Source of the DNA: Acidobacteriota bacterium
GTDB lineage: Bacteria > Acidobacteriota > Terriglobia > Versatilivoradales > Versatilivoraceae
Length of the DNA stretch: 50,534 nucleotides
Assembly (NCBI GenBank): GCA_028875575.1
Contig: JAPPDF010000066.1
Span: forward strand, 1-50,534
Reading direction: 5' to 3'
Shown: in pieces, positions 4,149 through 50,203 of the stretch
How the letters are laid out: the number at the start of each line of letters is the position of its first letter
Position numbering within the stretch: position 1 is the first letter of the stretch
Program-made: the position numbers and the translations under genes
Notes under the pieces: generated by a model
Databases searched by the model: none
What the model was told of the DNA's origin: nothing
Seen by the model: only the letters and a program-made list of their open reading frames with translations

Positions 4149-7091
4149 ATGAATCCCCTGGAGACCGAACCCTCCCCTGCCGACTCAATGAAACCGGATC
4201 GGAAAGACCTGGAGGAGAAGATTCTCCAGGTTGTTCGTGACCTGTTGGCTGAACTGGGGTCTCACCGGGCTCTGCGACACCTCTCGCCGAGCGCTTCGCT
4301 GGAGCGCGAGCTGGGCCTGGCCAGCCTGGAACGGGTGGAACTCCTTCTGCGTCTGGAAAAGGCCCTCTCGCTCGAGTTACCGGAGCAGCTGCTGTCCCGG
4401 GCTGAGGCAGTCAGCGACCTGGTCCGAGCCGTGATGACGGCGAAGTCTCAGGCAGGCAATAGGACATCGGCCTCCCCCGGGACGGACAGAATCGATCCCC
4501 TGCGGCTACAGCAGACCGGGAAGCCCAGGCCGGATCCGGGAGGAGTGGACGCCTGGAACCGGGAGGGCGGCTGGCCCACGACCCTCGATGAGGCGCTCTT
4601 CCATTTTGCTCAGCGGGACCCGGAGCGGGTCCACATTCAATTGCGGCTGGAGAATGGGGAGATGCGCCCGATCACCTATTCCGACCTGCTGTCGGAGAGT
4701 TCGGCGGTGGCGGCGGCGTTGCAGCAAAAGGCGGGGTTGCAGTCCGGGGACCGGATCGCGCTCATGCTCCCCACCGCCCCCGACTTCTTCCCGGCTTTCT
4801 TCGGCGCCGTTCTGGCCGGCACCGTTCCGGTTCCCCTCTATCCCCCCTGGCGGCCCGACCGCATCGAGGAGTACGCCCAGCGTCAGGCCAAGATAATCGC
4901 CGATTCCGGGGCACGAGTGCTGGTGACCTTTCAGGAGGTTGGTCGCTTGGCTCGGCTATTGGGCAGCCAGGTCCCCGGATTGGAAAGCGTGGTGACTCTG
5001 GACAGCCTGGGCAAGGCCTCCGGCACCGTGGTCCGGCCCCTGCCCCGGGATGTCGCCTTCATTCAGTACACCTCGGGGAGCACCGGCGACCCCAAGGGGG
5101 TGGTGCTGACCCATTCCAATCTCATTGCCAATATCCGGGCCATCGCGGAGGCGCTGAAGATCGACTCGCGGGATGTGGGGGTGAGTTGGCTTCCCCTTTA
5201 CCATGACATGGGCCTGATCGGAGCCTGGCTTTCCTGCCTTTATCTGGGGGTTCCCATCGTAATCATGTCTCCCCAGGCTTTCCTGACCCGACCGGAGCGG
5301 TGGCTGTGGGCCATACACCGCTATCGCGCCACCCTCTCGGCCGCACCCAACTTCGCCTACGAACTCTGCATGCGGCGGGTCGACGAGCGGAACCTGGAGG
5401 GACTGGACCTCTCCTGTTTGCGCGCCACCCTGAACGGTGCCGAGCCGGTTCAACCCGAGACCCTGGAGGGGTTTTCACGGAGATTCCAACCCTACGGCCT
5501 CCACGCGGACGCCCTGATGCCGGTCTACGGCCTGGCCGAGTCTTCGCTGGCGGTGACCATCCCGCCCCTGAGCCGAAGGGCTCTTCTCGACCCCATCGAC
5601 AGGGGCACTCTTGAAGAAACCGGAAGAGCGGAGCCCGCCTCCGGTCAATCCGCGAACCCGCTGACCTTTGTTTCTGCCGGTAGGCCGCTGGCCGGCCACC
5701 AGGTCAGAATTGTCAGCCGTGCCGGGGAGCCTGTTCCGGACCGGGTCCAGGGCCACATCCAATGTCGTGGGCCCTCCGTCATGCAGGGTTACTTCGGAAG
5801 AGCCGAGGCTACAGCCGAGGTCTTGCAGCATGGCTGGCTGAAGACGGGCGACCTGGGCTACCTGGCGGATGGAGAGCTCTTTGTCACCGGCCGGGTCAAG
5901 GACATCATCATCCAGGGAGGGCGAAATCTCTATCCCCAGGAACTGGAGCATATTGCGGGGGACGTGGAAGGCGTTCGGCGAGGCTGTGTCGCCGCATTCG
6001 GGGTCAGCGGAAGAGGCGTGGCGGGCGAGCGCCTGGTTCTGGTGGCCGAAACGCGTCGAACCGAACCCGAGCAGAAGGAGGAGCTGGCTGCCGCCATCAG
6101 GGAGAGGATGGACTCTCAGTTGGGAATCCCTCTGGATGAGGTTGTGCTGGTTCCCCCGCAAAGCGTGCCCAAGACCTCCAGCGGCAAGATCCGAAGGGAC
6201 AATTGTCGCCGCCTCTACCTGCAGGGCAAGCTCCATTCCCCGAGCCCGGCGGTCTGGGTGCAGGTGGCGCGGCTGGCTCTCCGGAGCCTGGGGCAGCGGG
6301 GCCGCCGGCTGATCGGGACGGTGGCCCGGTGGCTCTATGGCAGCTACGTGTGGATGGTGCTGGTCGCGGTCGGGCTGCCCTGCTGGGTGTTGCTGCTGTT
6401 GACGCCGTCCCGCACCGGACCTCGAACCGGACCCGCCCTGCTCCGATGGATCTCGCGAATCACTCTGCGATTGGGAGGGCTGCAGCCGGTGGTGGCCGGC
6501 CTGGAGAACCTGCCCCCGGTTCAACTCTCCGGACAGTCGCGGTTCCTGATCGTTTCCAACCATGCCAGCTATCTGGACATCCTGGTGTTGATGGCGGCCC
6601 TGCCCTTCGACTTTTCCTTTGTGGCCAAGCGGGAGGCCGCCTCCTGGCCCTTCGTAGGCACCTTCATACGTCGGTGCGGCTACCTCACCGTAGACCGTGA
6701 GAACGCGCCCGAGGCCGTTCAGGACAGCCGCCGCATCGAGGAGAGGTTGCTGGGCGGAGCACCGGTCCATGTGTTCCCGGAGGGCACCTTCACCCATGCC
6801 AGCGGGCTGCGGCCATTTCAGATGGGAGCCTTCAAGTTGGCGGCCGACACCGGATCGCCGTTGCTGCCGGTCACGCTTCGCGGGACGCGTCAGGTGCTCC
6901 GCGACGGCCGGCTGCTGCCCTCGCCGGCCCCGCTCGGGGTGGTTATCAGTCCGGCCATCCGGCCAGGCGGAAAAGGGTGGCCGGAAATGATCCGCTTGAG
7001 GGATGTGGCCTACGCAGAGGTCTTGAAACACTGCGGCGAAGGTCCCCTGGACCTGGTGCTGGCGGGTCCGCCCAGGGCTGGCGCCGAGTGA
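4149..7091 (+). CDS. ACP - fatty acyl-AMP ligase - PlsC acyltransferase fusion
   Basis: A 980-residue enzyme that should activate a fatty acid as acyl-AMP, load it on its own carrier domain and pass it to a glycerophospholipid or similar acceptor. Order: carrier domain about 14-95 with the phosphopantetheine serine in GLASLERVEL (about Ser59); AMP ligase about 130-690 with YTSGSTGDPKG (about 306), YGLAESS (about 459), KTGDLG, GRVKDIIIQGGRNLYPQE and the catalytic Lys in SSGKIRR (about 676); a membrane segment around 729-751; then PlsC with NHASYLD (about 803) and FPEGT (about 875). The ATG at 4149 follows GGAAG; the frame is open further upstream but that part lies over the promoter. Domain calls are firm; the lipid product is unknown. 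Confidence 0.88.
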   Translation: MNPLETEPSPADSMKPDRKDLEEKILQVVRDLLAELGSHRALRHLSPSASLERELGLASLERVELLLRLEKALSLELPEQLLSRAEAVSDLVRAVMTAKSQAGNRTSASPGTDRIDPLRLQQTGKPRPDPGGVDAWNREGGWPTTLDEALFHFAQRDPERVHIQLRLENGEMRPITYSDLLSESSAVAAALQQKAGLQSGDRIALMLPTAPDFFPAFFGAVLAGTVPVPLYPPWRPDRIEEYAQRQAKIIADSGARVLVTFQEVGRLARLLGSQVPGLESVVTLDSLGKASGTVVRPLPRDVAFIQYTSGSTGDPKGVVLTHSNLIANIRAIAEALKIDSRDVGVSWLPLYHDMGLIGAWLSCLYLGVPIVIMSPQAFLTRPERWLWAIHRYRATLSAAPNFAYELCMRRVDERNLEGLDLSCLRATLNGAEPVQPETLEGFSRRFQPYGLHADALMPVYGLAESSLAVTIPPLSRRALLDPIDRGTLEETGRAEPASGQSANPLTFVSAGRPLAGHQVRIVSRAGEPVPDRVQGHIQCRGPSVMQGYFGRAEATAEVLQHGWLKTGDLGYLADGELFVTGRVKDIIIQGGRNLYPQELEHIAGDVEGVRRGCVAAFGVSGRGVAGERLVLVAETRRTEPEQKEELAAAIRERMDSQLGIPLDEVVLVPPQSVPKTSSGKIRRDNCRRLYLQGKLHSPSPAVWVQVARLALRSLGQRGRRLIGTVARWLYGSYVWMVLVAVGLPCWVLLLLTPSRTGPRTGPALLRWISRITLRLGGLQPVVAGLENLPPVQLSGQSRFLIVSNHASYLDILVLMAALPFDFSFVAKREAASWPFVGTFIRRCGYLTVDRENAPEAVQDSRRIEERLLGGAPVHVFPEGTFTHASGLRPFQMGAFKLAADTGSPLLPVTLRGTRQVLRDGRLLPSPAPLGVVISPAIRPGGKGWPEMIRLRDVAYAEVLKHCGEGPLDLVLAGPPRAGAE

Positions 7092-7171
7092 GACCGGCAT
7101 GAGGTCCGGGCGCCGACACCGTCCGACCCGCGCACCGCGCAAGGATTGGACCGTCTCGGACGGGAAGCGTC

Positions 7172-7873
7172 ATGATTCCCCTGAAAGACATCAACCGAAC
7201 CCGGACCTTCCCGGCGGTCACGCTGTTTCTGATAGCGGTCAATGCGGCCGTCTTCGTCTACCAGTTGTCCCTAGGGTCCGGGCCGTTGCTGACAGGGTTC
7301 TTCTACCAGTTCGGACTGGTTCCCCGCGCGCTGCTCAGTTTCGGCTACTGGCAGGAAGCCGGGCTCCTGTTGGGTCTGGCTCCCCTCTTTACCTCCATGT
7401 TCCTGCATGGCGGCTGGATGCATTTCCTGGGAAATATGCTCTACCTGTGGGTGTTCGGCGACAACGTGGAGGACTGGCTGGGGGCGCTGCGCTTCCTGCT
7501 TTTCTACCTGGTTTGCGGTCTCCTGGCGGCCCTGTTGCAGATTGCCGTTAATCCCGCCTCGCCCATACCCATGATCGGAGCCAGCGGCGCCATCTCCGGG
7601 GTGTTGGCGGCCTATCTGGTGCTGTTCCCGGGAGCCCGGGTTCTCACCTTCGTGCCCATCCTGTTCTTCTTCTATCTGGTCCGGCTGCCGGCCCTGATCT
7701 TCCTGGGACTGTGGTTTCTGCTGCAATTCTTCAACGGCGCCGTTTCCCTGACGGCAGGGGATCTCTCCATGGGAGGCACGGCCTGGTGGGCTCATATCGG
7801 CGGCTTTGTCGCCGGGCTGGTTCTGATCCTGAAAACTCGCAAGTCGCGGCGACGAGCGAGGGTCCATTACTGA
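7172..7873 (+). CDS. Rhomboid family intramembrane serine protease
   Basis: Cleaves membrane proteins within the bilayer. The 233-residue protein is mostly hydrophobic with about six helices and a long L1 region. Rhomboid hallmarks are present: the motif GGWMHFLGNMLYLWVFGDNVED after helix 1 region, the catalytic serine in GASGAISG (about residue 138), and the catalytic histidine in WWAHIGGFVAGL (about 206). GGGAAG precedes the ATG. It lies 80 bp after the acyltransferase fusion and 33 bp before the sugar kinase and may share a transcript. Its substrates cannot be inferred. Confidence 0.92.
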   Translation: MIPLKDINRTRTFPAVTLFLIAVNAAVFVYQLSLGSGPLLTGFFYQFGLVPRALLSFGYWQEAGLLLGLAPLFTSMFLHGGWMHFLGNMLYLWVFGDNVEDWLGALRFLLFYLVCGLLAALLQIAVNPASPIPMIGASGAISGVLAAYLVLFPGARVLTFVPILFFFYLVRLPALIFLGLWFLLQFFNGAVSLTAGDLSMGGTAWWAHIGGFVAGLVLILKTRKSRRRARVHY

Positions 7874-7906: not shown

Positions 7907-9385
7907 ATGCTCTCCAGCAATCCTCTGATCCTCACCATTGACGCCGGGAGCTCCTCGGTTCGGGCCACCATCCATGATGGCTTCGGCCAGGCCCTGGCCG
8001 GCCTGGAGGCTCGAAGACCCTACCAGTTCGCAACCACCTCGGATGGGGGCGTGGAGGTGGGCGCCGATGCCCTGTTCAAGCTGGTGGTGGAGGCGGTCGA
8101 CGAGATCCTGCTGCGAAGCGGCCGCCGGCGTCGGGCAATTGCCGCCGTTGCCATGTCGACCTTTTGGCACAACCTGGTGGGGGTGGATGCCGAGGGGCGG
8201 GCGCTGACTCCGGTATACTCCTGGGCCGATACGCGCAGCGCCGCCGCCGCCGAGGAGCTTCGCAGCCTGGTGGACGAAAGCCGGTACCACGCCCGCACCG
8301 GCTGCCCGCTCCATCCCAGCTACCTGCCGGCCAAGCTGTCGTGGCTGTATCGGTCCAGTCCGGAACTGTTCCGCGGGACCCCCCGGTGGATGTCGTTCGG
8401 GGAATATGCCTATTTGAAACTATTTGGCGTCAACCGATGCAGCGTCTCCATGGCGTCGGGGACAGGACTGCTGGATCAGGACCGCCTGGAGTGGGACGAG
8501 GGAATTCTGCAGGTCCTGCCTCTGGAGCGAAATCAGTTGTCCCCCCTCATCGACCTGGACACGCCGCTGTCGGGCCTCAGGCCGCCCTTCGCCGATCGCT
8601 GGCCGGACTTGAGTGGAGTTCCCTGGGTGGCCGCCGTTGGAGACGGGGCCTGCAGCAACGTGGGCAGCGGCTGTTGCACGCCGGATCGTCTGGCCCTGAT
8701 GGTTGGCACTTCGGGCGCCATGAGAGTCATGGGCAAGACGGACCCGCCGTCGGTCCCACGAGGGCTATGGTGCTATCGGGCCAACCGGAGCCGCTTTGTC
8801 ATGGGTGGGTCTCTCAGCAACGGAGGACTCCTCTTCGAGTGGATGACCGAGACGCTGCGGCTGGAGCGAGATCCGGAGGCTGTGGAGCGCGGACTGGCGG
8901 AGATGGCCCCGGATTCCCATGGACTGACCCTTCTGCCCTTTCTGGCCGGAGAGCGCAGCCCGGGTTGGCAATCCAAGGCCCGTGCGGCCGTAACGGGCCT
9001 GAGCCTGCACACCCGTCCCATTGAGATCCTTCGGGCTTCGCTGGAATCGGTGGCCTACCGGTTTGCAAAGATCGCTGCACTGCTGGAGCCTGTGGTCCCG
9101 GAGGATCGAGAGATTGTGGCTTCCGGCGGGGCGCTCCTGCAATCGCCTGCCTGGCTGCAGATCATGGCGGACGTGTTGGGACAGCCGGTGGTGGCTTCGG
9201 CGGTGAAGGAAGCCTCGAGCCGGGGCGCAGCCTTGCTGGCCCTGGAAGCCCTGGGTTTTCTCGACAACATCGAGGAGGTGGAGACCCCTCTGGGGGCACG
9301 CTTCAATCCTTGCCCGGAACGGTACCAACGTTACCGGAATGGTCTGGAAAGGCACGACCGGCTCTACCGCCTGCTGCTGCCGTAG
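7907..9385 (+). CDS. FGGY family carbohydrate kinase (gluconokinase/xylulokinase-like)
   Basis: Phosphorylates a sugar or sugar acid. The 492-residue protein has the N-terminal ATPase fold signature (LTIDAGSSSVRATIHD), a conserved MSTFWHN/WADTR region typical of gluconate and xylulose kinases, the central GDGACSNVGSG and TSGAMR motifs, and the C-terminal adenosine-binding segment (IVASGGALLQSPAWLQIMADVLGQPV). The ATG follows only a weak ribosome site. The transaldolase gene next door favours a substrate entering the pentose phosphate pathway, with gluconate or xylulose the best guesses. Specificity within FGGY kinases cannot be fixed by eye. Confidence 0.85.
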   Translation: MLSSNPLILTIDAGSSSVRATIHDGFGQALAGLEARRPYQFATTSDGGVEVGADALFKLVVEAVDEILLRSGRRRRAIAAVAMSTFWHNLVGVDAEGRALTPVYSWADTRSAAAAEELRSLVDESRYHARTGCPLHPSYLPAKLSWLYRSSPELFRGTPRWMSFGEYAYLKLFGVNRCSVSMASGTGLLDQDRLEWDEGILQVLPLERNQLSPLIDLDTPLSGLRPPFADRWPDLSGVPWVAAVGDGACSNVGSGCCTPDRLALMVGTSGAMRVMGKTDPPSVPRGLWCYRANRSRFVMGGSLSNGGLLFEWMTETLRLERDPEAVERGLAEMAPDSHGLTLLPFLAGERSPGWQSKARAAVTGLSLHTRPIEILRASLESVAYRFAKIAALLEPVVPEDREIVASGGALLQSPAWLQIMADVLGQPVVASAVKEASSRGAALLALEALGFLDNIEEVETPLGARFNPCPERYQRYRNGLERHDRLYRLLLP

Positions 9386-9520
9386 CCCGCATTTCTCTAC
9401 CCGGGTGGGGCGATCATGGCGCTGGGATTTTGATTGTGTCGGCCGGGGCGGGGGGTTAAAGTTTGTTACCGATGGACTCGCGGGAATCTGGAGTCCCGAC
9501 ACGCACTGCGGGAGGGTTCG

Positions 9521-10678
9521 ATGGACAGCCGGAATTCGGGTCGTAAAGGAACGAGTCCGCTCCTGGACTTGCAGCAGCAGGGTCAGAGCGTCTGGTGCGA
9601 TTCGATCAGCCGATCCCTGCTGGATTCTGGCGAGTTGCGCCGCATGATCGCCGAGGATGGCTTGCGCGGGGTGACCTCCAACCCCTCCATCTTCGAGAAG
9701 GCCATCGACGGTGGCACCGACTACGACGGGGAGATCCGCACCATGGCCGGGGCGGGATTCTCCGCCACGAGGATCTACGAAGTGCTCGCCATCAAGGACA
9801 TTCAGGGAGCGGCCGATCAGTTCAGGGCTCTCTTCGAGACGACCGGGGGTGGAGACGGCTACGTCAGCCTGGAGGTCTCGCCCCATCTGGCCCACCGGAC
9901 CCGGGAAACGGTGGAGGAGGCCCGCCGCCTGTGGAAAGCCGTGGCTCGACCCAATCTGATGATCAAGGTTCCCGCGACTCCGGCCGGCATGCCCGCCATC
10001 CGTCAACTGCTGGGAGAGGGGATCAACGTCAACGTCACCCTGATGTTTTCCATGGAGCACTATCTTCAGGTGGCCGAGGCCTACCTGCAGGGAATCGAGA
10101 CTCTGGCCGCCTCCGGGCGCACCGCCCCGGTCGCCTCGGTGGCCAGCTTCTTTGTCAGCCGGGTCGACACGGTGGTCGACAAGCTGCTGCAGGACCTGGA
10201 GTCACGAGCCGGCAGCGCTACGGAGAAAGAACGCTGCCGGACCCTCCAGGGCCGAGCCGCTGTTGCCAATGCGCGCCTGGTCTATCGGAAATTCAGGGAA
10301 ATCTTTGGCGGGAGCCGCTTCCTCGGGCTCAAGCGACAAGGCTTCCGCTCGCAGCGCCCTCTGTGGGCCAGCACCAGCACCAAGAATCCCCGATATCGGG
10401 ACGTGCTCTACGTAGAAACCCTGATCGGCCCCGATACGGTGAACACCATGCCCTTGTCCACCCTCTCGGCCTTTCGGGATCACGGGGAGGTGAGAGCCAC
10501 CCTGGAAGAGGACGTGGAGGATGCCCGGCAGACCTTTGTCCGGCTGCAGGAGATGGGAATAGACATGGACGCGGTGACCCTCAAGCTGCAGCAAGACGGC
10601 GTCAAGCTCTTCGCCGACGCCTATGACCGGCTGCTGGCCTCCATCCAGAGTAAACAGCAAGCGATCCTCAGCGCTTGA
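9521..10678 (+). CDS. tal: Transaldolase
   Basis: Transfers a dihydroxyacetone unit between sugar phosphates in the non-oxidative pentose phosphate pathway. At 385 residues it belongs to the longer bacterial type. Visible signatures are the N-terminal GVTSNPSIFEKAI, the Schiff-base lysine in NLMIKVPAT (about Lys149), NVNVTLMFS, and ASTSTKNPRYRDVLYVETLIGPDTVNTMP near the C-terminus. The ATG at 9521 was chosen because GGGAGG sits just before it; the frame is open to 9434 but lacks a ribosome site there. It follows the FGGY kinase by 135 bp. It is the last intact core gene before the island of integrase remnants. Confidence 0.95.
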   Translation: MDSRNSGRKGTSPLLDLQQQGQSVWCDSISRSLLDSGELRRMIAEDGLRGVTSNPSIFEKAIDGGTDYDGEIRTMAGAGFSATRIYEVLAIKDIQGAADQFRALFETTGGGDGYVSLEVSPHLAHRTRETVEEARRLWKAVARPNLMIKVPATPAGMPAIRQLLGEGINVNVTLMFSMEHYLQVAEAYLQGIETLAASGRTAPVASVASFFVSRVDTVVDKLLQDLESRAGSATEKERCRTLQGRAAVANARLVYRKFREIFGGSRFLGLKRQGFRSQRPLWASTSTKNPRYRDVLYVETLIGPDTVNTMPLSTLSAFRDHGEVRATLEEDVEDARQTFVRLQEMGIDMDAVTLKLQQDGVKLFADAYDRLLASIQSKQQAILSA

Positions 10679-38451: not shown

Positions 38452-38666
38452 TACCTACCCCCGATCGGGCGACCGCTTCCGGCCGACGAGCCTAGCGCCC
38501 ATTATGGTACGATTTTGCTTCTCCGGCACGTCAATCAAGAGATTCAACGCCCGAGATGGTCATTACTGCAATATGGAGACATTTCCCGGATGGTGTTATG
38601 CCTCTTGAAGCCGCGCCGAGCCCAGCAGCAAAATCTAGCCGGTTAGTCCAGCCAGGAGAGCACACA

Positions 38667-38921
38667 ATGACCGACTGGTCCTTGCAAGACGCCAAGAACC
38701 GCTTCTGCGCCGTGGTCGATGCCGCCATCGGCGGCGCGCCGCAGCGGGTGACCCGCCGGGGCAGGCCCGCCGTCGTGGTGCTGGCGGCAGACGAGTACGA
38801 GCGCCTGTGCCGTTTGGAGAAAGCGAGTGCTCCAACGCTGGCCCGGTTGTTGCTGGACATCCCGCGGGCTGATCGGGATTTCGACCGACAGTCGTTACCA
38901 ACCCGCCCGCTGGACCTGTGA
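38667..38921 (+). CDS. Phd/YefM-family antitoxin without its toxin
   Basis: An 84-residue antitoxin of the Phd/YefM fold: WSLQDAKNRFCAVVDAAIGGAPQRVTRRGRPAVVVLAADEYERLCRLEK, with a C-terminal toxin-binding tail (LARLLLDIPRADRDF). CAGGAGAGC precedes the ATG at 38667. In its relatives a VapC/PIN toxin gene overlaps the stop codon. Here TGATG does overlap, and the first codons of a toxin-like start follow (MFLIYTD), but within 13 codons the sequence becomes a HigA-type antitoxin. The toxin is therefore lost. Confidence 0.8.
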   Translation: MTDWSLQDAKNRFCAVVDAAIGGAPQRVTRRGRPAVVVLAADEYERLCRLEKASAPTLARLLLDIPRADRDFDRQSLPTRPLDL

Positions 38922-38959
38922 TGTTCCTGATTTATACCGACGAGAGGAGGAAGGTCGGC

Positions 38960-39250
38960 ATGTTGAAGTGCGTCGTTCACCCTGGCGAGATTCTGAGAGA
39001 CGAGTTGGCCGAGTTTGGCGTGAGCCCTACGGCATTCGCCCGTCAGATAGATGTGCCGCCCAACCGGGTGAGTCAAATCATCGCCGAAAAACGTACTGTT
39101 ACCGGCGATACCGCGCTGCGGTTCGGGCACTGGTTCGGGGTGGACCCCCAATTCTGGCTGAATCTCCAAACACAGTTCGACCTCGCCATCGCTCAGCAAC
39201 AGGCCGGCGCTGCCGTGCGTGAATTGCCCACGGCGGCCGCGGGCAGGTAG
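38960..39250 (+). CDS. higA: HigA-type antitoxin (XRE helix-turn-helix)
   Basis: A 96-residue HigA/VapI family protein: VHPGEILRDELAEFGVSPTAFARQIDVPPNRVSQIIAEKRTVTGDTALRFGHWFGVDPQFWLNLQ. The ATG at 38960 follows GAGGAGGAAGGTCGGC, a strong ribosome site. The frame also extends back to an ATG at 38921 that would add MFLIYTDERRKVG, read here as a leftover of a VapC start. HigA is normally paired with HigB just upstream; no HigB is present. As a DNA-binding protein it may regulate the genes of this island. Confidence 0.85.
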   Translation: MLKCVVHPGEILRDELAEFGVSPTAFARQIDVPPNRVSQIIAEKRTVTGDTALRFGHWFGVDPQFWLNLQTQFDLAIAQQQAGAAVRELPTAAAGR

Positions 39251-40118: not shown

Positions 40119-41753
40119 ATGGCAAGAGTACAACCGGGAAAAACACGCTCCCCAAAGGGCGCAATGCCCGGCGGCGCCGGCGCAACCACGGGCTATGAGG
40201 CTGACCTTTGGCGCATGGCGGACGCCCTGCGCGGCAGCATGGATGCGGCTGAATACAAGCATGTTGTCCTGGGCCTCATTTTCCTGAAATACATCTCCGA
40301 CGCCTTCGAGGAGCGGCATGCGGCCGTTCTGTCCGAATGGGGCGGCGAGGCCGCCGAGGACCGCGACGAGTACATCGCCGAGAACATCTTCTGGGTGCCG
40401 CCCGAGGCCCGCTGGGTGCATTTGAAAGCCCAGGCGCGCCAGCCGACCATCGGCCAGCTCGTCGACGGCGCCATGGCCGGCATCGAGCGCGACAACCGGG
40501 CGCTCAAGGACGTGCTGCCCAAGGACTACGCCCGCCCCGCCCTCGACAAGCAGCGGCTGGGCCAACTCATCGACCTCATCAGCAACATCCTGGTGGGCGA
40601 TGAGGAAGCCCGCTCCAAGGACGTGCTGGGCCGGGTCTACGAGTACTTCCTGTCCCAGTTCGCCAGCGCCGAGGGCAAGAAGGGAGGCGAGTTCTACACT
40701 CCGCGCTGCGTGGTCAAGCTGTTGGTAGAGATACTGGAGCCCTATCGAGGACGTGTATACGACCCCTGCTGCGGTTCCTCCGGCATGTTCGTGCAGTCGA
40801 TGGAGTTCATCCGGGCTCATGCCAGCGGCAACGGCAACGGCGGACAGGCCAGAGCCGACATCTCCATCTACGGGCAGGAATCCAACTACACCACCTGGCG
40901 GCTGGCCAAGATGAACCTGGCCATCCGCGGCATCGAGGGCCAGATCGCCCACGGCGACAGCTTCCACAACGACCGCCATCCCGACCTCAAGGCCGACTTC
41001 ATCCTGGCCAATCCGCCCTTCAACGTCTCCGACTGGGGCGGCCAGCGGCTCACCCAGGACCAGCGCTGGCAATACGGTGTCCCTCCCAAGGGCAACGCCA
41101 ACTTCGCCTGGGTGCAACACATGGTCCACCACCTGTCGCCCGCCGGCGCGGCCGGCTTCGTGCTCGCCAACGGCTCCATGTCGTCAAGCCAGTCAGGTGA
41201 GGGAAACATCCGCAGGTCGCTGATCGAGGCCAACCTGGTGGACTGCATGGTGGCCCTGCCCGGCCAGCTCTTCTACTCCACCCAGATCCCCGCCTGCCTC
41301 TGGTTTCTGGCGCGCCGACGGGAGCGGAGCGGTGAGATCCTGTTCATAGATGCCCGCAAGCTGGGACGCATGGTCGACCGCACCCACCGCGAGCTGACCG
41401 ACGAAGACATTGCCCGCATTGCCGGCACCTACCAAGCCTGGCACAGCCGTGCTTCTATTTTCTCGAAGGAAGCGGGCCAGGGCGAGGGTGGCGCTAACGT
41501 GTACAAGGACGTTCCGGGCTTCTGCAAAAGCGCCGTCCTGGAGGAAGTCCGCCAGCACGGCCACGTGCTCACCCCCGGCCGCTATGTCGGCGCGGAGGTT
41601 CAGGAGGATGACGGCGAGCCGTTCGAAGACAAGATGAAGCGACTGGCTGCCCAGTGGCGCAAACAGCAGGCCGAGGCGGCGAAGCTGGATGCGGCTATTG
41701 AGTTGAACCTGAGCGGGCTGGGGTTCAATGGAAACATGGAGGGGGAACAATGA
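40119..41753 (+). CDS. hsdM: Type I restriction-modification methyltransferase subunit HsdM
   Basis: Adenine-N6 methyltransferase that modifies host DNA with HsdS. The 544-residue protein has the N-terminal HsdM helical domain ([35 protein letters not shown]), motif [11 protein letters not shown] (about 214) and motif IV NPPFN (about 297), and the type I hallmark [26 protein letters not shown] precedes the ATG. Its stop overlaps the ATG of a DUF2442 fragment (ATGA). Compared with usual operons, hsdS does not follow directly: about 1.3 kb of small genes lie between. Confidence 0.96.
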
Positions 41754-41875
41754 TTCGACCCACTGAAGTAGCGGGCCGAGAGGGATATCGGATATGGATC
41801 CGGTTCTCGGACGGGGCTACCGAGAGGTTGGCCTGTCCCATCTGGCGGGGCCGGCCAGGTAGGGCGGCAGTTTGA
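41750..41875 (+). pseudogene. DUF2442-like remnant
   Basis: The frame begins [24 protein letters not shown], the expected start of a DUF2442 protein (a short strand pair ending xRFSDGxxGxVDLS). After SDGAT the matching sequence moves to another frame (EVGLSHLAG), giving frame shifts and early stops. Full DUF2442 proteins are about 75-90 residues; this encodes 41. The ATG overlaps the hsdM stop. DUF2442 genes often pair with DUF4160 toxin-like genes, which is absent here. Confidence 0.55.
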
Positions 41876-41922
41876 AGTCAGTGGATGCGGCTGACGGTCA
41901 ACAAAATCATGAGGTGAACCTA

Positions 41923-42354
41923 ATGATCGAGTGGTTCGATGTCCTAAAGTTATCTGTACCAGTATTCTTGGCGTTCCTCGGTTGGCTATTGAATGAACAC
42001 AGCAAGAGGCAGTGGGAACGATATAAGAGAAAGGAAGAGCGATACGTTGCCCTGTTAGAGAGTCTGAAGGGTTTCTACGCCAGCGCCGGTCCGACAACAG
42101 CTAGAGACGACAAGGAGAGATTTCTTCAACAACTCTCTGTTGGTTGGCTCTATTGTCCTGACTCTATAATCCGACAAATTTACATATTCCTGAATCATGT
42201 GAGTACCGACGTCCGCAAGTCTGATGAGGAGAAGGAAAAGGCAGTTGGAGAAATTGTCTCTCTGATGAGAAAGGATCTACTCGGCAAGAGGTTCTTTTTA
42301 CGGGGTAGAACAAGATTGAATGCATCAGACTATCGGCATCTCAAAGCCACTTAA
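41923..42354 (+). CDS. Small membrane-anchored hypothetical protein
   Basis: A 143-residue protein with one N-terminal helix (VLKLSVPVFLAFLGWLL, about 7-23), then a basic stretch (NEHSKRQWERYKRKEERY) and a mostly helical charged domain. The ATG at 41923 follows ATGAGGTGAACC; upstream in-frame starts lie in the DUF2442 remnant. The topology (anchor plus cytoplasmic helical domain) is common for small proteins in phage-defence islands. No named family is recognised. The local DNA is more AT-rich than hsdM, suggesting separate acquisition. Confidence 0.6.
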   Translation: MIEWFDVLKLSVPVFLAFLGWLLNEHSKRQWERYKRKEERYVALLESLKGFYASAGPTTARDDKERFLQQLSVGWLYCPDSIIRQIYIFLNHVSTDVRKSDEEKEKAVGEIVSLMRKDLLGKRFFLRGRTRLNASDYRHLKAT

Positions 42355-42360
42355 ACGGGC

Positions 42361-42558
42361 ATGCGCGTGGTCGTGAACGGGTATGAAGATGGCTTCGATG
42401 ACGTGTCGTACGAACGGATCGCCGTGGTCAAGTTGCACTTGAACCGAGGTATGAAAGACTGGCAGGGTCGGCACCTGGAACCCGCAACGCAGACCGAAGA
42501 AATGCTTGGTGACGAGGATGTCGTGGACGCGCTGGCGATTCTCCGCGAGTCCAATTGA
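42361..42558 (+). CDS. Small hypothetical protein upstream of the HEPN gene
   Basis: A 65-residue acidic protein: MRVVVNGYEDGFDDVSYERI, then a basic middle (HLNRGMKDWQGRH) and DEDVVDALAILRESN. Its stop overlaps the next ATG in TGATG, so the two are translationally coupled. The minus strand is also open here, but the coupling and plus-strand gene order favour this reading. No family is assigned. Confidence 0.45.
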   Translation: MRVVVNGYEDGFDDVSYERIAVVKLHLNRGMKDWQGRHLEPATQTEEMLGDEDVVDALAILRESN

Positions 42559-43037
42559 TGTGCCGTGCTGTCTATAGGCATTTGCGACGGCCCGGACGTA
42601 AGAGATCTGACGCATGCGCCGCGATCGAATACGACAAGTTTCAGATGTTCCTCAAGGGTCTTGAGGAGCAGTACGAGAGTTACCGGCAAACTGACGATTC
42701 CCTGCCCAAGCTGACCGAGGGAGCTATTGCCGGGTTGGTCATTCAGCACTTCGAAACCTGCTTTGACTGCCTGTGGAAGGTGTTGAAGCGGTACTTGATT
42801 GAAGAACTGGCTCTCGCGGACGCGCCCAACAGTCCCAGGTCCATCTTCAGACTGGCCTGCGAGAACGATCTGCTCGATAGGTCACCGGAGGGATGGTTCG
42901 ATTACACCGACGCCCGCATCGGTACGGCTCACGATTACAGCGGCGAGAAAGCGCAAGCCTGCCTGGAAATCATGGGCGATTTCATTGAGGACGCTATCGG
43001 CCTCTACCAGACCATGACCGAGGAGACATGGGACTAG
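42558..43037 (+). CDS. HEPN-domain protein (HepT-like, nucleotidyltransferase substrate-binding type)
   Basis: A 159-residue helical protein. The core from YDKFQMFLKGLEEQYESYRQ through LVIQHFETCFDCLWKVLKRYL matches HI0074/HepT-type HEPN proteins. The RNase-type motif RX4HxY is complete in ARIGTAHDYSGEKA (Arg, His and Tyr about residues 131-138). In HepT the Tyr is AMPylated by MNT for neutralisation (established for the HepT/MntA family). The ATG at 42558 adds ~22 unusual residues before the conserved core, where ATC-GAA-TAC replaces a likely ATG, so the true start is uncertain. Its end overlaps the start of the MNT-HsdS gene. Confidence 0.78.
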   Translation: MCRAVYRHLRRPGRKRSDACAAIEYDKFQMFLKGLEEQYESYRQTDDSLPKLTEGAIAGLVIQHFETCFDCLWKVLKRYLIEELALADAPNSPRSIFRLACENDLLDRSPEGWFDYTDARIGTAHDYSGEKAQACLEIMGDFIEDAIGLYQTMTEETWD

Positions 43038-44683
43038 ACCGGCCCATCGATATCACCACGGACCAGCGCAAGACCGTTATGGCGTTGCTCGCCAGCCACC
43101 TGCCGAACACCACGGCCTGGGTCTACGGTTCCCGCGTGAAGTGGACTTCGAGCCCGAAGTCTGATCTGGACTTGGTGGTGTTTGCAACTCCTGAGCAAAC
43201 CGGCCAAGTCTCGAATCTCAGGGAAGCCTTTGAGGAAAGCAACCTGCCGTTTCGGGTGGATCTGTTTGTTTGGGACGATGTGCCAGAGCAGTTCCGCGAG
43301 ACGATTGAAATGGAGCATGTTGTGTTGCTGGAGAGGGAAAAACAAAAGACAGCAAGGGACTGGCACAAAACCACCCTCGGAGGCTTGTTATCGTTTGCAA
43401 ACGGAAAATCGAGCCCGCGACGATCTGGCAGTTTGCCACACCCCGTCTACGGCTCAAATGGAATTATTGGCTTTTCTGATGAATCCAATGCAGATCCCAA
43501 CACCATTGTCGTTGGGCGCGTCGGAACCAACTGTGGCTCTCTACACTACAGCGACCGAATGTGTTGGGTGACAGACAACGCCATTCGATCAACCGCGATC
43601 AACCGGAATGACGCGAAGTTCGTGTTCTATCTGCTCCAGACACTTCGACTGAATGAGTGGAGAGCGGGTTCCGGTCAACCCCTGATTAACCAGACTATAC
43701 TCTCCTCGATACCTGTGTCAGTGCCGGACCCTAAGGAACAGCGCGCAATCTCCCAGGTCCTCGGGACACTGGACGACAAGATCGAGTTGAACCGGCGGAT
43801 GAACCAGACGCTGGAGGCCATGGCGCGGGTGCTGTTCAAATCCTGGTTCGTCGACTTCGACCCCGTCCACGCCAAAGCCACCCTTAAGCATCACGTTGCG
43901 ACTTTCCCTCAAGGGGGGAGTGATTGGGGCGTCGAACGCGCTCGCGCCTGTCTCGACAGGATGGACTCAAATATCGCAACCCTATTTCCGGACAGCTTCG
44001 TGGATTCCGAACTCGGCCCGATACCGGAGGGGTGGGAAGTGGTTCCGCTGGCTGAAACGATCGAGGTCAATCCATCGCGACCGCTACGAAGGGGAGAGAT
44101 TGCGCCCTATCTCGACATGGCCAATATGCCCACGAAAGGACACACACCCGAAACGGTCATTGACAGGCCCTTTGGATCTGGAATGAGATTTGCTAATGGG
44201 GACACGCTTCTCGCGCGTATTACTCCGTGTCTCGAAAACGGTAAGACGGCGTATGTTGATTTCCTGGAGGAGGATCAGGTCGGCTGGGGATCAACGGAGT
44301 ACATCGTTCTACGCCCCAAGCCGCCGTTACCCAGCAAATTTGCCTATTGCCTCGCACGTAGCGATGGCTTCCGCGAGGTTGCGATTCAAAACATGACAGG
44401 GACAAGCGGCCGGCAGCGTGTTCCTGAGACCGCCATTTCGAATTATAGAATGACCATTCCCAAAGGACTTGGGGTCCCGAGAATGTTCGGAGAGTTAGTT
44501 GAGCCTCTCTTGTCACTCGCATCTCAGAATGCGGATGAATCCCACGCCCTTGCTGCCCTGCGCGATACGTTACTGCCTAAACTCATATCCGGCGAGTTGA
44601 GGGGGGTAAAGCAAGCCCACCAAGTGCAAAATGAGTTCCGACCCTCGGGGTTCTCCCAGCCCATTACCCAGAGAAATGAGTAA
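43028..44683 (+). CDS. hsdS: MNT nucleotidyltransferase fused to HsdS specificity subunit
   Basis: One 551-residue frame joins two proteins. Residues 1-105 form a minimal nucleotidyltransferase with GS(x)10DxD (Gly34-Ser35, Asp46, Asp48) and a third Asp in FRVDLFVW (Asp78), the pattern of MntA antitoxins. From about 110 it is HsdS: first target-recognition domain (GKSSPRRSGSLPHPVYGSNGIIGF), central conserved helix (ISQVLGTLDDKIELNRRMNQTLEAMARVLFKSWFVDFDP), second domain starting LGPIPEGWEVVPL, and the closing ALRDTLLPKLISGELR. The ATG lies inside the HEPN gene. No stop or shift separates the parts. An internal start for HsdS alone cannot be excluded. Confidence 0.85.
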   Translation: MGLDRPIDITTDQRKTVMALLASHLPNTTAWVYGSRVKWTSSPKSDLDLVVFATPEQTGQVSNLREAFEESNLPFRVDLFVWDDVPEQFRETIEMEHVVLLEREKQKTARDWHKTTLGGLLSFANGKSSPRRSGSLPHPVYGSNGIIGFSDESNADPNTIVVGRVGTNCGSLHYSDRMCWVTDNAIRSTAINRNDAKFVFYLLQTLRLNEWRAGSGQPLINQTILSSIPVSVPDPKEQRAISQVLGTLDDKIELNRRMNQTLEAMARVLFKSWFVDFDPVHAKATLKHHVATFPQGGSDWGVERARACLDRMDSNIATLFPDSFVDSELGPIPEGWEVVPLAETIEVNPSRPLRRGEIAPYLDMANMPTKGHTPETVIDRPFGSGMRFANGDTLLARITPCLENGKTAYVDFLEEDQVGWGSTEYIVLRPKPPLPSKFAYCLARSDGFREVAIQNMTGTSGRQRVPETAISNYRMTIPKGLGVPRMFGELVEPLLSLASQNADESHALAALRDTLLPKLISGELRGVKQAHQVQNEFRPSGFSQPITQRNE

Positions 44684-44685
44684 CA

Positions 44686-45531
44686 ATGGGACAGCACTAC
44701 CTTCCACAACACTACCTGCGCCACTTTGCAACACCGGAGGCCCCAGACAAGATCTGGATGTATGACAAATGTTCTAAGGAGTTTAAACGACTTCCGATTA
44801 AGAATGTGGCGCAATCGAGCAGATTCTATAGCGAGAAAGATGAGCGTGTGTTGAGCGACTGGATCGAAGGTCCCGCTCAGGATCCGCTTGGTCAACTGCG
44901 AAACGGCCAAGAGGTTGGAGTCGAAGGTAGACGAGCAGTCACAGTTTATTTGGAATCAATGATCAAGAGGGGGCCGCGTAATAGGCGAAAAATGATTGAG
45001 AAAGCCCCTCAAACCAAAAACGAACTGTTATCAGAGATTAAAGGAAATCTTGAGTTAGAGGCATCGAGATTCAATTTGTCTCAGGAAGAATTACTACACA
45101 AGATCGACGAATGGGAGGGGAAATTTGACAGCAAGCGGCTTTCAATGAAGGACGATCTTATCCGTCGTCAATGGTTTTCGCCGGCCGTGTGCGAGTACAT
45201 CTTTTCTATGACGTGGCGAGTCATCAAAGCAGACGACGCACACCGCTTTATTACCTGTGACCATCCAGTATTCTTCGATGAGGGGTACGGATTGAAACCC
45301 CCATATGGAGAGTTCAGTTTTCCTTTGTCGTCTGATAATGCATTGCACGGCAGTTGGCGGGGGCCGCAAGAGGGGTTTTTTTTCGTTCAGGCGAGGCCAC
45401 CACTTGTTAAGGAAATAGATCGTCGTGTGGCTTTTATGGCGGAGCGCTTCGTGTTTTATCATCGCAATGCCAGTTGGGTGCCCAAAGTTGCCGACAAACT
45501 GAGCCCAAGGCTGACTCCAATTGAGTGGTAG
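44686..45531 (+). CDS. DUF4238 protein
   Basis: A 281-residue protein with the DUF4238 opening HYLPQHYLRHFATPEAPDKIWMYDK and the later RFITCDHPVFFDE and FPLSSDNALHG. DUF4238 proteins occur in many defence islands; their activity is not known. The start is two bases after the hsdS stop, so it is coupled. Directly after its stop is a copy of an HsdS C-terminal tail, which suggests that this gene was inserted at the 3' end of a specificity gene. Confidence 0.75.
   Translation: MGQHYLPQHYLRHFATPEAPDKIWMYDKCSKEFKRLPIKNVAQSSRFYSEKDERVLSDWIEGPAQDPLGQLRNGQEVGVEGRRAVTVYLESMIKRGPRNRRKMIEKAPQTKNELLSEIKGNLELEASRFNLSQEELLHKIDEWEGKFDSKRLSMKDDLIRRQWFSPAVCEYIFSMTWRVIKADDAHRFITCDHPVFFDEGYGLKPPYGEFSFPLSSDNALHGSWRGPQEGFFFVQARPPLVKEIDRRVAFMAERFVFYHRNASWVPKVADKLSPRLTPIEW

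Positions 45532-47039: not shown

Positions 47040-47043
<4 letters not shown>
46807..47043 (+). CDS. Phd-like antitoxin, internally shortened
   Basis: A 78-residue antitoxin-like protein starting with GTG. It has the N-terminal part of Phd/YefM-type proteins ([28 protein letters not shown]) and the characteristic tail [21 protein letters not shown]. In relatives as I recall them a strand segment like FVVVPxxxW stands between; here it is missing in frame. The stop overlaps the ATG of hsdR by 4 bp, where a PIN toxin would normally be. It may be a remnant kept for translation of hsdR. Confidence 0.65.

Positions 47044-50203
<3,160 letters not shown>

Follow-up and report, generated by a model that had tools for sequence, protein, structure and literature searches.

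Class I HEPN-MNT pairs combine a PF01934 or PF08780 protein carrying an RX4HXY motif with an adjacent minimal nucleotidyltransferase (MNT) carrying a GSX10DXD motif; the former are RNase toxins in which a tyrosine is AMPylated by the MNT (PMC7641770). In Legionella, the HEPN toxin cuts rRNA and is poly-AMPylated by its MNT (PMC11586414). Anantharaman et al. (2013) tabulated clusters of the HEPN-T family with restriction-modification (R-M) operons and occasional fusions of HEPN-M to methylases, and proposed toxin release as a second-line defence (PMC3710099). Here we analyze a type I R-M operon in a 50,534-nucleotide stretch of DNA from an Acidobacteriota bacterium (assembly GCA_028875575.1, contig JAPPDF010000066.1, positions 1 to 50,534; hereafter the window), in which a HEPN gene precedes an MNT fused to the specificity subunit HsdS. 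The gene order is hsdM, HEPN, MNT-HsdS, two cargo genes and hsdR, all on the forward strand. The MNT-HsdS architecture is well supported. On balance, we consider it probable that this operon has absorbed a type VII toxin-antitoxin (TA) pair from the HI0074/HI0073 branch, in which the antitoxin has been joined to the N-terminal end of HsdS and control of the toxin is thereby tied to that subunit. As judged from the sequence, predicted toxin control and DNA recognition are physically coupled in one polypeptide.

The MNT-HsdS fusion and its HEPN partner

The fusion is encoded by an open reading frame (ORF) at 43028-44683 that remains open in one frame across 551 codons. An initial annotation of the window had proposed that the MNT is continuous with a two-domain HsdS, and this is borne out: the junction (residues 100 to 112) is read through with neither a stop codon nor a shift of frame. 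The N-terminal half matches Polbeta (PF18765, residues 28-105, 1.8e-9), with PF01909 also above its cut-off, and the C-terminal half matches Methylase_S (PF01420, residues 111-263, 5.4e-18). When the fusion was compared with PADLOC, the top 25 of the 105 matching families were all Specificity_I. One PADLOC model, PDLC03138, aligns with residues 7-278, which indicates that an MNT-bearing S subunit is already present in that library, unlabelled. The MNT is of the HI0073 type and, as the same annotation had noted, retains GSX10DXD and a third aspartate (G34, S35, D46, D48, D78), while the HEPN protein retains RX4HXY in the form RIGTAHDY (42915-42938).

The predicted structure agrees with the proposed fusion. 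An AlphaFold2 model built from an alignment of 49 relatives (the structure alignments were made without plasmid rows) has a mean predicted local distance difference test score (pLDDT) of 90.5 and shows, in order, an alpha/beta MNT, a hinge, a first target recognition domain (TRD1), helices, a second (TRD2) and further helices. The MNT domain spans residues 1-101 (43028-43330) and the HsdS part occupies 43355-44683, with central helices at about residues 235-292 and distal helices at residues 482-520. Between them lies a short linker (residues ~102-109; 43331-43354), which is probably flexible in view of its modelled confidence: the block 101-110 has a pLDDT of about 63, compared with 88-95 in the adjoining blocks. 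The single-chain model does not fix the placement of the MNT relative to HsdS. In Foldseek searches, the S half matched the solved HsdS subunits 1YDX, 1YF2 and PacII 7VRU. The MNT was closest to HI0073 (1NO5; TM-score 0.83 normalised to the target, 40% identity), followed by the Legionella MNT (8XEO) and Shewanella MntA.

The HEPN gene, a toxin candidate, lies immediately upstream at 42558-43037. The start assigned to it in the initial annotation, 42558, is an ATG; a TTG at 42555 is an alternative start, and the conserved domain begins at about 42621; residues 1-19 are modelled with low confidence. The protein belongs to the HI0074 family (PF08780, NTase_sub_bind, ‘NTase substrate-binding’; 1.7e-17) and is a single domain of 138-160 amino acids. 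Its AlphaFold2 model (pLDDT 86) is a five-helix bundle that best matches HI0074 (1JOG), then the Legionella HEPN in structures 8XDJ (AMPylated) and 8XEH, then Shewanella HepT. Across 48 HEPN homologues, the arginine of RX4HXY is invariant and the histidine and tyrosine are at least 90% conserved; by analogy with characterized toxins, the tyrosine is the expected AMP acceptor. The HEPN stop and the MNT-HsdS start overlap by 10 bp (43028-43037), which likely reflects translational coupling. The same 10-bp overlap occurs in 30 of 52 fused entries, and eight others have a 4-bp overlap. The proposed kinship with HepT/MntA stands as regards type VII motifs and folds, but the pair is HI0074/HI0073-like: its closest characterized relative is Legionella HEPN-MNT rather than the Shewanella HepT subfamily proper.

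Occurrence, exchange and repeated fusion

To place the fusion in context, we scanned one genome per species (~85,000 genomes) with an MNT profile, which retrieved 451 relatives. The best 80 of these loci were annotated with locally built hidden Markov models and form the basis of the fusion counts. The MNT is fused to HsdS in 49 of the 80. Among the fused loci, hsdM is in view in 47, hsdR in 35 and both in 33. They span at least 11 named phyla, namely Pseudomonadota (19), Acidobacteriota (8), Nitrospirota (8), Verrucomicrobiota (3), Latescibacterota (2) and one each in Nitrospinota, Rhodothermota, Planctomycetota, Thermodesulfobacteriota, Bacteroidota and Chloroflexota, with three loci lacking a phylum label. 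This range rules out a fusion private to the source genome or genus. The fusion also occurs on closed chromosomes, such as OX638355.1 (‘Terriglobia bacterium’, equivalent to L057/L077), on plasmid pZMOB01 of Zymomonas mobilis ATCC 10988, and in Methylomonas methanica. Phage records contained HsdS pieces and no MNT-HsdS fusion.

These occurrences also settle whether the junction might be an assembly artefact or a chance read-through. The assembly behind the window consists of 101 contigs, and the window hsdR is frameshifted, but the same fusion is found in dozens of independent assemblies, on closed chromosomes and on pZMOB01, which rules out an artefact of assembly; we give this explanation a negligible probability. 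The two halves are likewise not always separate in homologues, as the fused majority attests. A HEPN toxin candidate with its MNT antitoxin candidate tethered to HsdS inside an hsd operon is thus a recurrent and conserved arrangement. A HEPN gene immediately precedes the fusion in 49 of 52 fused entries, and RX4HXY is kept in 46 of the 49 HEPNs concerned. The 31 unfused loci fall into two groups. In 27 of them the retrieved DNA contains no hsd gene, and these resemble ordinary free-standing HEPN-MNT pairs. The other four (L091, L096, L107, L108) retain hsdM, but their HsdS is either not found or has been truncated, displaced, interrupted or frameshifted; their HEPN and MNT motifs are still intact.

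A sample chosen independently of the MNT was obtained by searching 396 Acidobacteriota genomes with the window HsdM. At 60-84% HsdM identity, both plain hsdM-hsdS systems and HEPN plus MNT-HsdS systems occur. The former have a 16-bp hsdM/hsdS overlap (L158, L161, L174, L180, L181, L187); the latter comprise the window, G146, G245, G305, two systems in G392, and G473, to which a HEPN-first search added G432. Within the genus of the window, G001 and G004 carry the same fused pair. G003 has near-identical hsdM and hsdR (91-93%) but a different, unfused HEPN (31%) and MNT (38%). This comparison suggests that the HEPN-MNT cassette is swapped as one block.

Fusion did not follow a single line of descent. 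On an MNT tree of 104 columns, the fused state requires 19-21 changes, at least five of them forced by well-supported branches; the tree is unrooted, such that gain and loss of fusion are inseparable. Holding all fused MNTs as one clade was rejected by the approximately unbiased (AU) test (p = 9e-5), which excludes a single ancient fusion inherited vertically. Hence fusion arose or was lost repeatedly. L133 provides a further example from a distant MNT family: its MNT-HsdS fusion follows a second HEPN and is arranged in tandem with a pair that is not fused. Two HEPN-MNT pairs per hsd locus were observed in L081, L087, L092, L095 and L133, where an unfused pair of another subfamily precedes the fused one, and L104 and L105 have an additional HEPN-MNT pair upstream of hsdM. 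An unfused counterpart, hsdM-HEPN-MNT-hsdS-hsdR, is found on Acetobacter plasmids.

The slot between hsdM and hsdS is a cargo hotspot. In other loci it holds Fic/DOC (three loci), AAA/OLD-like, YhcG (DUF1016), Schlafen AlbA_2 or ORF6N genes (L159, L177, L178, L175, L183, L162, L078, L088, L147), some of them together with HEPN-MNT. Fic proteins are another AMP-transferring family. Different minimal nucleotidyltransferases lie directly 3' of hsdM in L182 (2228-2521; FGSVARG type) and L167 (1089-1421), which suggests that this slot is also used by other MNT families. In L060, an unfused HEPN-MNT pair (5520-7495) directly adjoins a remnant of hsdR, and neither hsdM nor hsdS lies in the vicinity; the pair looks like a survivor of its R-M system.

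These observations bear on the possibility of pure addiction, in which a selfish TA module sits between hsdM and hsdS and its fusion hinders loss of the operon, with no sensing of phage. This would account for a pair that is optional in otherwise similar R-M systems, for a slot that carries other cargo in relatives, for intact HEPN and MNT motifs that outlast HsdS decay in the four damaged loci, and for the unfused pair by the hsdR remnant of L060. That HEPN and MNT endure where HsdS has decayed does support an addiction component. However, fusions that recur at one particular end of one particular subunit exceed what chance insertion needs, as does the long-term purifying selection on the joined protein described below. 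We judge pure addiction rather unlikely.

Constraint, asymmetric loss and predicted toxin control

Both partners are under strong purifying selection. G34, S35, R36, S45, D46, D48 and D78 are identical in all 54 fused MNTs. In addition, the ratios of nonsynonymous to synonymous substitution (dN/dS) in close pairs are low and overlap among HEPN (0.06-0.29), MNT (0.04-0.26) and HsdM (0.14-0.17). The invariant catalytic residues and low dN/dS rule out the MNT as a decaying relic and, with the same architecture in independent assemblies, argue that the fusion is more than chance.

Loss is asymmetric. The HEPN-first search of the 396 Acidobacteriota genomes recovered 30 HEPNs, all of which adjoin an MNT, and seven of those MNTs are fused to HsdS. 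Conversely, MNT-HsdS is intact where the HEPN has been lost, as in L084 (its last 14 residues remain), L086 (first 25 and last 15) and L153 (nothing recognizable), or damaged, as in L085 (an insertion replaces the RX4HXY loop), L095 and L120 (no tyrosine). By eye, the glutamate matching the Legionella metal site (E47; PMC11586414) is replaced by lysine in L085 and L095. Such asymmetry is expected if the HEPN is harmful and the MNT protective, with the provisos that the MNT-based set is blind to MNT loss and that the HEPN-first set covers one phylum.

This pattern also bears on whether the HEPN is a toxin. It could instead be a substrate-binding subunit, with the MNT modifying HsdS, HsdM or another protein and so tuning restriction. 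The original naming of PF08780/HI0074 (the title of 1JOG) implies such a role, and fusion would put the modifying domain on its substrate. Against this, RX4HXY is kept in almost all partners, the HEPN is deleted or broken while MNT-HsdS persists, and the relatives in Legionella and Shewanella are toxins that their own MNT AMPylates (PMC11586414, PMC7641770). We consider a substrate-binding role very unlikely.

Under the preferred reading, in which the HEPN is a toxin restrained by the fused MNT, the biochemistry of homologues predicts that the HEPN would be an RNase. We strongly infer, by analogy with the same relatives, that it would be AMPylated by the MNT half: AMP transferred to the tyrosine of the RX4HXY loop would keep the HEPN inactive. 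With the antitoxin built into HsdS, restraint of the toxin would depend, though less certainly, on the specificity subunit being made continuously and staying intact. Were MNT-HsdS to be titrated, blocked or degraded, or to disappear altogether, HEPN molecules synthesized afterwards would escape modification and the cell would arrest. The outcome would be addiction to the operon and possibly a PrrC-like back-up when restriction is attacked. Since MntA-type antitoxins add AMP covalently, dissociation alone would not reactivate toxin that has already been modified; activation through freshly made, unmodified HEPN is thus more likely, by analogy, than activation through dissociation. The four loci with damaged HsdS and intact HEPN and MNT suggest that the MNT may neutralize the toxin without a working HsdS.

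The same considerations apply to a PrrC-like guard, the idea behind the toxin release proposed in the initial annotation, in which phage inhibitors of the M2S1 complex (Ocr, ArdA and Stp types) or DNA-bound states would alter access of the MNT and unleash the toxin as a second-line defence. There is a precedent in PrrC/EcoprrI (PMC3710099, PMC12707154). In the present systems, the antitoxin is carried on the recognition subunit via a short, probably flexible linker, the putative toxin gene is embedded in the hsd operon and co-occurrence with hsdM is strong (47/49). A covalent antitoxin, however, does not free its toxin on dissociation, and the HEPN and MNT persist where HsdS is broken. We judge a guard of this kind rather unlikely, on a par with pure addiction. 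The broader proposal that the specificity subunit has repeatedly evolved into an AMPylating antitoxin, such that phage attack on the recognition complex or its loss would leave the toxin unmodified and arrest the cell, is one we advance tentatively, with the balance somewhat against it.

Several observations weigh against the preferred reading of an absorbed type VII pair that ties toxin control to HsdS. The MNT scores 36.1 bits against the curated NCBIfam MntA model (NF047752), below its cut-off of 60, and the HEPN scores 43.9 bits against the HI0074 model (TIGR01987), below its cut-off of 55.8. Plain systems, L158, L174 and L181 among them, have HsdM identities of 71-83%; the same R-M lineage thus includes plain relatives, and the HEPN-MNT pair is an optional insert. 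The window hsdR is frameshifted, and hence restriction may be off here. In L120, the HEPN (6564-6983; RVDTSHET) has lost the tyrosine while R, H and the Q/E site are kept, with no other visible damage and an intact MNT-HsdS; a strict AMPylation model leaves this locus unexplained. In addition, the RNase site of the Legionella HEPN has been placed elsewhere than RX4H (PMC11586414), and no published toxicity, RNase, AMPylation or phage work on fused members was found.

To our knowledge, coupling of restriction to suicide is represented by one well-studied case, PrrC/EcoprrI, and many predictions. The fusion opens both this coupling hypothesis and the nature of the trigger of type VII TA systems to direct experiment, as it offers a single polypeptide, culturable hosts (Z. 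mobilis ATCC 10988 with pZMOB01, M. methanica) and known enzyme chemistry. There is also a practical implication: deletion of hsdS in strains with the fusion may also remove an antitoxin. A report of hsdS deletion in Zymomonas ZM4 (PMC8432527) does not mention a nucleotidyltransferase or HEPN and provides no evidence either way.

Operon context and comparison with known systems

The window encodes a type I R-M set of HsdM, HsdS with two TRDs, and HsdR. The methyltransferase subunit HsdM (40119-41753; 544 aa) matches PF02384 (8.6e-107) and HsdM_N and shares 91% identity with that of the fused locus L057 from the same genus. The interval between hsdM and the HEPN gene (41754-42558) contains what is left of a small gene without a Pfam match (42361-42558; about 81 aa when complete), the 5' end of which is replaced by ~550 bp containing a 160-aa ORF of no known family. 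This gene is intact in L057 (81 aa; 9381-9688), L078 (6323-6568) and L080 (6324-6569) and interrupted in L059. Downstream of the fusion are the two cargo genes, encoding DUF4238 (44686-45531; PF14022, 7.7e-26), which none of the other scanned loci carries, and DUF2806/TIGR03899 (45688-46731; PF10987, 7.4e-34). The hsdR gene (47040-50203; PF18766, PF04313, PF11867) is split into frames at 47040-49220 and 48983-50203. In a tblastn search with the intact L057 HsdR (1053 aa), frame 3 covered residues 1-717 and frame 2 covered residues 716-1044, locating the frameshift near 49184-49190; it represents a sequencing error or a recent loss of restriction. Fragmented hsdR genes were also seen in the fused loci L090, L141 and L153. 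Upstream of the operon, a Phd-like 121-aa ORF (38556-38921) and a HigA-like 110-aa ORF (38918-39250) were recognized by eye, and the region may therefore be a defence or TA island.

Relative to described systems, the pair shares motifs, third aspartate, folds and gene adjacency with type VII HepT/MntA (Shewanella SO_3166/SO_3165, Legionella HEPN-MNT 8XEH, HI0073/HI0074). It differs in that the HEPN gene comes first, the locus lies inside an hsd operon and the MNT, rather than being a stand-alone minimal antitoxin, makes up the N-terminal domain of HsdS (551 aa in total). Like PrrC/EcoprrI, where a HEPN-superfamily anticodon nuclease resides in a type IC hsd locus, it places a HEPN-type RNase candidate within hsdM-S-R, with restraint by an R-M-linked protein expected. 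PrrC, however, combines an N-terminal ABC NTPase with its C-terminal HEPN nuclease and is bound by the whole complex, whereas the HEPN described here has no ABC NTPase and would be restrained through AMPylation by the MNT on HsdS.

An MNT is likewise joined to an immune effector subunit in Cmr1-MntA (PDB 9z7q, 9z7v, 9z7x), as judged from the molecule name; that protein differs in being a CRISPR type III-B subunit with the MNT at its C-terminus (match 352-432 of 438), and a search of the accessible literature returned no paper about it. The Acetobacter plasmid operons have the same gene order and families, but with MNT and HsdS as separate, adjacent or overlapping genes. For MNT-HsdS itself, a search of the text of PMC3710099 found neither ‘HsdS’ nor such a fusion, and the literature that could be searched, which excludes most subscription journals and preprints, yielded no account of one. 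The association of HEPN and MNT with R-M has been known since 2013, and the MNT-HsdS fusion is best regarded as a variant of type VII TA inside type I R-M.

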